From NCBI RefSeq assembly GCF_000011105.1, contig NC_000961.1, positions 1,536,662 through 1,600,661 of the forward strand: a DNA stretch of 64,000 nt. Reading direction: 5' to 3'. A program made the translations under genes and the position numbers. Origin of the DNA: Pyrococcus horikoshii OT3. GTDB taxonomy: Archaea; Methanobacteriota_B; Thermococci; Thermococcales; Thermococcaceae. The notes beneath the pieces were generated by a model that saw only the letters and a list, made by a program, of their open reading frames with translations, ran no database searches and was not told where the DNA came from. Shown here piece by piece: positions 24,719 to 25,784 of this stretch. Position 1 is the first letter of the stretch. Every line of letters begins with the position of its first letter.

Positions 24719-24736
<18 letters not shown>

Positions 24737-25090
24737 AACACCCTTAGCTTTAATCATACCCCCTATCGCAATAATAGCCGTAACGACGATTCCACCTATC
24801 CCAGCATTAAAGAAGATCTTCCAAAGTGGATAACCCAACATTAGGGTTAAGTAAGAGCAGAAAAACTCCCAGAGAGATGCTAGCAAAAACGCTAAGAAGA
24901 TAGAATGCCTAAATTTCCTTTTTGAAACCCTGAAAATAATGATCCAAGGAACTAAAATAGCTAGCACAGTGCTCACTAAAGCTAAAGCTACTGCTATTGG
25001 CAGAGAATAATTTTCAGCTAATGAAATGCTTATCCCTATCAGAAATATAAAGGAAATAGCCGAAATGTACTTTTTTCCAATTTCCTTCAT
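24719..25090 (-). CDS. Small four-helix membrane protein, partner of the Cys-rich gene
   Basis: 123 residues with four predicted membrane helices (about 8-24, 29-53, 63-85, 93-112). It has a strong GGAGGTG site and begins 18 bases after the cysteine-rich gene at 25109-25714, so the two are one operon. No family recognised. If the upstream gene is a bacteriocin-like precursor, this would be the natural candidate for immunity or export; that is inference from position and topology only. Confidence 0.7.
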
Positions 25091-25108
25091 ATTAACACCT
25101 CCATGTCA

Positions 25109-25714
25109 TTAAGGTTTTGGTTCAGGGAAAATGGACTCGCATTTGCTTCCTTTTTCAGTACAACAGCTCTCACCACAGAATGGACAAGCTACTAAAGCAC
25201 AGAGTATACAAGGGCCAGGACCTAGCATACAAGGAATTGAACATGCACCATTGCCAGGAGTTGCACAGCATCTTATAACACAAGTGGTACTTACAGAACA
25301 ACAATACTCACTACAATAGGTCAACGGTGGACAATCTTCGTTTTTCTGACATTCATGAGTACAAGAGGATAGCGTTTTGAAATTTCCATTAATTCCAAAT
25401 CTTGTTATTTTAACCTTTGAGTTATTCACAGTAAACTCATATGCAACTGTCTTAACTCCTTGAATCGGTTTTGAAAATTCATATAGCACTACAAATCTGC
25501 CATCCCCAAGTGGAACTCCAAATGCTAGTAATGTAACATTTTCATCATACTCTAGTAAATGCTTCATTATAATAGCTCTAGAGTATTCAACATTCCAAGG
25601 CCTAGCCAGCTTCCAGAAATCCCTGCTTGTGGTAAGTTCAAAAAATGTATTGATTTTAGACAAGTTTTCCTGAACTATAGCAATAGATCTCACCTCAATA
25701 AATACTTTCTTCAT
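25109..25714 (-). CDS. Cysteine-rich protein with a halocin C8-like C-terminus
   Basis: 201 residues in two parts. Residues 1-115 have ordinary composition (FGVPLGDGRFVVLYEFSKPI near 65-84). Residues about 117-195 hold 18 cysteines, with CC pairs and repeated CxxxC/CxxC spacings such as CSIPCMLGPGPCILC and CPFCGESCC. This spacing, with Gly-rich hydrophobic stretches, recalls halocin C8-type archaeocin domains, which sit at the C-terminus of a longer precursor. No signal peptide is evident from this start. The ATG at 25714 lies only about 10 bases after a TTTATAAA element, so an in-frame GTG at 25693 could be the true start. Function not proven. Confidence 0.65.
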   Translation of the reverse strand: MKKVFIEVRSIAIVQENLSKINTFFELTTSRDFWKLARPWNVEYSRAIIMKHLLEYDENVTLLAFGVPLGDGRFVVLYEFSKPIQGVKTVAYEFTVNNSKVKITRFGINGNFKTLSSCTHECQKNEDCPPLTYCSEYCCSVSTTCVIRCCATPGNGACSIPCMLGPGPCILCALVACPFCGESCCTEKGSKCESIFPEPKP

Positions 25715-25784
25715 TTAACGTTTATAAATTTTTGTGTTAAAAAAGTTTAGAAAAATTCGTATAAAAAATTACTGCTAGTATGTT

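Follow-up and report, generated by a model that had tools for sequence, protein, structure and literature searches.

This locus of Pyrococcus horikoshii OT3 raises the question of what a small, extremely Cys-rich protein and the membrane protein encoded directly behind it could do for the cell. It lies in a stretch of 64,000 nucleotides that was analysed as a whole (the window), and was originally predicted to encode a halocin C8-like precursor with a four-helix immunity or export partner. The description of the two genes holds. In the translation of the first ORF (P0001), all 18 Cys fall within residues 118-192 and are confined to the last 84 of its 201 residues, while the runner-up among the 86 window ORFs of at least 100 aa has 6 Cys per 84-aa stretch. 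The second ORF (P0002) begins 18 nt past the stop codon of P0001, behind a GGAGGTG motif, and its 123-aa product has four hydrophobic segments (residues 8-26, 34-52, 64-82 and 92-110). A CTP synthase gene and a small gene of 144 aa flank the pair at one end and ScpA/SMC at the other, with only 70 nt between the ATG of P0001 and the ScpA stop codon. The features of the locus are as follows.

25109..25714, minus strand: P0001, 5'-truncated precursor ORF, 201 aa; the start, ATG 25714 or GTG 25693, is uncertain
25364..25714, minus strand: N-domain remnant and linker, aligning from about residue 36 of full-length homologues (model positions 36-230)
25112..25363, minus strand: hypervariable Cys-rich C-domain, 84 aa with 18 Cys, the predicted toxin moiety
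24719..25090, minus strand: P0002, 123-aa four-TM membrane protein, the predicted cognate immunity protein
25096..25102, minus strand: Shine-Dalgarno sequence GGAGGTG of P0002, within the 18-nt intergenic gap
25721..25728, minus strand: TATA-like promoter element TTTATAAA, aligned with TTTATATA upstream of the predicted orphan immunity genes of genomes G007 and G004

The earlier doubt over the start codon remains. The TATA-like box at 25728-25721 would place the start of transcription near 25698, past the ATG and just before the GTG.

About 35 near-full-length homologues of P0001, together with fragments, were found by protein search of 94 Thermococcaceae genomes. When 115 genomes of the phylum were searched with a profile, clear precursor matches were confined to the Thermococcaceae; any match at all was seen in 47 of the genomes, one of these being a weak match outside the Thermococcaceae. 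A profile of the C-domain only recovered the same loci and relics. In genome contigs, a single-sequence search returned nothing, and relatives were found with the alignment only. Viral contigs, plasmids and phages contained no relative, and thus nothing connects the family with known mobile elements.

Full-length members are 224-244 residues long and begin MRRRALLAxFVVLLLIGAYGAYVVSYPKYPEVKGCVNPF, with the first part of this sequence (MRRRALLAxFVVLLLIGAYGAY) being carried by most near-full-length homologues. By eye, a short hydrophobic segment follows straight after MRRR or MRKR. The N-terminal segment is followed by a conserved domain of about 85 residues, a linker and the Cys-rich domain, which in most members starts with C-x3-C-x5-C and a CC pair. 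Upstream of full-length homologues, for example L031-L036, two elements are conserved: a TATA box of the TTATATA type, some 50 nt ahead of the start codon, and a G run serving as ribosome binding site; intact copies are therefore probably expressed.

P0001 starts at model position 36, just past the signal/anchor and the single conserved Cys of the N-domain. The 35-residue segment of its homologues that ends in VKGC is absent, and the apparent lack of a signal peptide that had been held against the original prediction is therefore genuine. By eye, no relic signal sequence was found upstream of the ORF in the 70 nt to the ScpA stop codon. Judged from the alignment, P0001 is 5'-truncated relative to its family, a point which the original prediction missed. 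Without its 5' end, the window copy is therefore probably no longer exported, with immunity probably kept. Broken precursor copies are common (L056, L060, L064, L065, L067, L068 and L070), showing frameshifts, in-frame stops, internal deletions that fuse the signal to the C-terminus, or ends only, and at least two near-full-length homologues have an internal stop. The window copy fits this decay series as a beheaded predicted toxin gene next to an intact predicted immunity gene; it is probably a producer gene in decay whose immunity has been retained.

The second gene proved to be a regular feature of the family. When homologues were checked in other Thermococcaceae, a small membrane partner was found behind intact members, and no other family matched the C-domain. 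In 29 of the 31 loci compared, the gene directly downstream encodes a small protein in which 3 or more hydrophobic segments are present; of 252 control genes taken from these loci, only 2 do so. Partners have 75-142 aa and no domain beyond their helices; two of them, the L045/L046 type, are shorter (79 aa) and have a single strong TM on the scale applied. The N-domain, the C-domain and the first downstream protein were compared across the 31 loci by Mantel tests. Similarity of the C-domain was strongly correlated with that of the partner (r=0.75, p=1e-4), while the N-domain and the C-domain varied separately (r=0.07, p=0.17). After removal of near-identical C-domains (n=27), the values were 0.70 for C-domain and partner (p=1e-4), 0.04 for N-domain and partner (p=0.18) and -0.02 for N-domain and C-domain. 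At the cut-offs used, the 31 loci fall into 14 types by C-domain and 18 by partner. The partner type follows that of the C-domain and not the N-domain, and in agreement with this, the nearest relative of both the window C-domain (46% identity) and P0002 (33%) is found at the same locus, L031. The adjacent small gene is present, and co-variation indicates that it is specific to the peptide.

Related genomes were also compared at the DNA level. Identity between L032 and L033 is mostly 92-97% over a stretch that starts 375 nt upstream and ends about 375 nt into the gene (84% in the outermost windows), falls to about 32-54% across the C-domain and the partner, and returns to 81-91% from about 500 nt past the stop codon. 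L046 and L047 show the same swap pattern between flanks that are 72-93% identical, and over both pairs identity is mostly 85-97% to about nt 375, then about 30-54%, and 75-91% downstream. The same intragenic breakpoint was seen in L054 versus L055 and in L037 versus L045, whereas a pair of the same type, L053 and L054, is mostly above 90% identical throughout, with a few windows of 73%-89%. As the drop spans the C-domain and the partner between conserved flanks, the predicted toxin domain and the predicted immunity gene are replaced as one unit. A conserved N-terminal part with an exchangeable module of C-domain and partner, the arrangement of polymorphic toxins, is therefore found in this family.

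Many cassettes (L032, L033, L036-L038, L043, L044, L046, L047 and L059) adjoin one and the same small gene, which is conserved and by eye looks cupin-like (MKAEIKNLIDRGTYRKLPLFEGELPE...); this is likely to be an exchange hot spot.

Orphan partner genes, another feature of polymorphic toxins, were found both behind foreign cassettes and elsewhere in the genomes, where they recur without their precursor. The second-position genes of L041, L042 and L043 resemble the L049 partner (43-44%). In L061 this position is taken by a gene with 95% identity to the cognate partner of L055, in L063 by one with 70% identity to the partner of L058, and L059 has two further partners after its own, first one of the L031 type, then one of the L037 type. 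The site of the window shows the same in other Pyrococcus. With identities of 70, 61 and 47%, the P0002 gene is found at the same CTP synthase/ScpA site, between the same neighbours but with no precursor there, in three other Pyrococcus genomes; these are G004, G005 and G007. G005 has an extra L037-type partner in front of the P0002 gene, and its own precursor is elsewhere in the genome with a different partner. In both G007 and G004, the TATA box of the orphan P0002 gene aligns with that of the truncated P0001. The original prediction had allowed for the membrane protein to serve in export, which is unlikely because the partner is retained without the precursor.

Among Pyrococcus, where dS could be estimated, the dN/dS of P0002 is 0.25-0.30, compared with 0.01-0.08 for its neighbours, and its reading frame is open. 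Faster evolution of a gene that yet stays open is as expected if P0002 is an immunity gene, constrained but adapting. Between P. horikoshii and G007, dS is 0.57 for P0002 (24719-25090) and 2.4 for the adjacent CTP synthase gene; the low value suggests horizontal exchange of the predicted immunity gene at this site.

The C-domain has 14, 16, 18 or 20 Cys, an even number in 31/31 loci (the 17 counted for L064 reflect a broken copy whose match stops short of the last Cys), and the N-domain has exactly one in every full-length member. If the 14 C-types are independent, such parity would be expected by chance roughly once in 2^13. The pattern argues for a closed, extracellular disulfide unit rather than a metal site. 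The C-domains carry an acidic net charge (-3 to -12) and one hydrophobic stretch, which suggests action on a membrane. An AlphaFold model of the precursor, built from a 12-row alignment, has a beta-rich N-domain and a mixed C-domain (pLDDT 70), and that of P0002 has four helices (mean pLDDT 68). Foldseek gave no significant match for the precursor model in PDB and BFVD, nor for the P0002 model in PDB. With Pfam, NCBIfam and PADLOC there was no significant family match and no known toxin or delivery domain, and the best PHROG match, to an unnamed entry, reached E=0.0056 in 7 members. A WAP/four-disulfide-core-like fold was considered and rejected, as the PDB sequence search gave just omwaprin, with E=0.27 over 28 residues.

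We consider it highly probable that the locus belongs to a polymorphic disulfide-rich bacteriocin (archaeocin) system of the Thermococcaceae with cognate membrane immunity. The precursor and membrane immunity pair that was originally proposed is thereby backed by cassette swaps, coupled variation and orphan genes, all of them sequence evidence. An intact first gene would encode a pre-pro-peptide in which the signal/anchor at the N-terminus is followed by the beta-rich, conserved pro-domain and then by a variable C-terminal toxin of 69-89 aa, which would be released by cleavage and is predicted to be acidic, disulfide-closed and partly hydrophobic. The toxin would act outside the cell, most likely on the membrane of related strains, while the product of the second gene, a small protein with several TM segments, would sit in the membrane of the producer and be specific in neutralising its cognate toxin. 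The toxin domain and the immunity gene would be swapped jointly, with the pro-domain in front of them conserved, and strains would retain orphan immunity genes for protection. Such bacteriocins are likely to occur across the Thermococcaceae, unlike known archaeocins in sequence, with toxin and immunity exchanged as a cassette and with orphans collected by resistant strains.

Some observations do not favour a bacteriocin. The compact cassettes showed neither a C39 or other dedicated protease nor an ABC exporter, partners of the L045/L046 type are short, and the window copy is without an export segment. Furthermore, a secreted peptide coupled to a membrane protein would fit a signal and its receptor as well, and coupled variation of this kind is also a property of pheromone and kin-recognition systems. 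The Cys-rich peptide could then be a polymorphic signal and the 4-TM protein its cognate receptor. We regard this as improbable, as the partners are so small and have only helices, producer genes often decay, and orphan partners stacked behind foreign cassettes would be useful as immunity but not as receptors without a signal. It is very unlikely that the truncated P. horikoshii protein was re-purposed as an intracellular protein or as a toxin-antitoxin pair with the membrane protein: its ORF is open, every Cys column agrees with the family and a promoter lies upstream, but other Pyrococcus keep the partner without the precursor at this site, and the relics in many genomes show that decay is common. 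A metal-binding, Fe-S or redox protein with an accessory membrane protein, to which the dense Cys and the CxxC and CxxxC spacings could point, has hardly any likelihood given the signal/anchor of the homologues, the always even Cys count, the hypervariability coupled to the partner and the lack of a significant Pfam, NCBIfam or PDB sequence match.

Membership of the halocin C8 family has just as little likelihood, and this part of the original prediction failed in HMM, profile-profile and genome searches. The layouts are alike: halocin C8 (ProC8, TIGR04449) is also made as an exported archaeal precursor with an N-terminal part and a Cys-rich C-terminal peptide of about 76 aa, and halC8-like loci have a small ORF straight downstream, as in the Thermococcaceae cassettes. 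However, there is no detectable homology. TIGR04449 (halocin_C8_dom) matched none of 25 members even at E=10 and nothing in the genome, and hhalign gave probabilities of 0.2% and 0.1%, with a halocin profile alignment of three rows only. By eye, the long twin-arginine leader of halocin C8-like proteins was not found in the homologues. Export of halocin C8 uses the Tat pathway, and its cleavage yields a 76-aa peptide and HalI, the N-terminal part, which provides immunity (PMC11509114). In the Thermococcaceae, the peptide co-varies with a separate gene for a variable membrane protein, and protection appears to come from that gene; variation of the C-domain with the partner and not with the N-domain argues against HalI-like immunity. 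On haloarchaeal plasmids, halocin C8-like genes (L085-L087) have another ORF close behind, which at L086 encodes a 68-aa protein with a two-helix membrane look, possibly an overlooked second immunity gene.

The predicted bacteriocins share features with other systems. Like class II-type bacteriocins, they have a structural gene with a small adjacent immunity gene, producer/immunity polymorphism and orphan immunity genes, but they are archaeal, have 14-20 Cys and a large conserved pro-domain, and their compact cassettes showed no dedicated transporter. Polymorphic toxin systems, as far as they are covered in PMC8416519 (citing Zhang 2012; Makarova 2019), likewise have a conserved N-terminal part, a swapped C-terminal toxin, linked cognate immunity and orphan immunity arrays; here the predicted toxin is a small disulfide-rich peptide instead of a nuclease, and there is no long delivery protein. 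VARTIG, a hypervariable module specific to Thermococcales, resembles the cassettes in that particular membrane proteins follow particular variable proteins, but it consists of large Ig-domain proteins in multi-gene islands (PMC8416519), whereas no Ig domain was matched by Pfam in 25 precursors.

The only archaeocins described are halocins and sulfolobicins (PMC10105419). The precursor/partner family of the Thermococcaceae was previously unnamed. No description of it was found in the literature searched; an earlier mention is possible, for example in the 2019 mBio survey by Makarova et al., the abstract of which reportedly lists candidate analogous systems that may include it. T. kodakarensis and P. 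furiosus are genetically tractable hyperthermophiles, and a Thermococcales peptide weapon, if true, would extend archaeal antagonism to their group. At least 18 partner types and 14 C-domain types are ready-made test pairs, and the peptides would offer antimicrobial scaffolds that are rich in disulfides and work near 95-100 C. As with the bacteriocins of rival bacteria, strains would exchange the predicted peptide jointly with its immunity gene, and genomes with a producer, a decayed producer or immunity only could serve as a natural experiment on archaeal conflict.

Short ORFs of 45-79 aa (L114, L115, L070, L112 and L113) in G013, G014, G015 and G022 contain only the precursor signal segment and/or the C-terminal tail, with orphan partner genes nearby. 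These are either shared internal-deletion relics or very short derived peptides.
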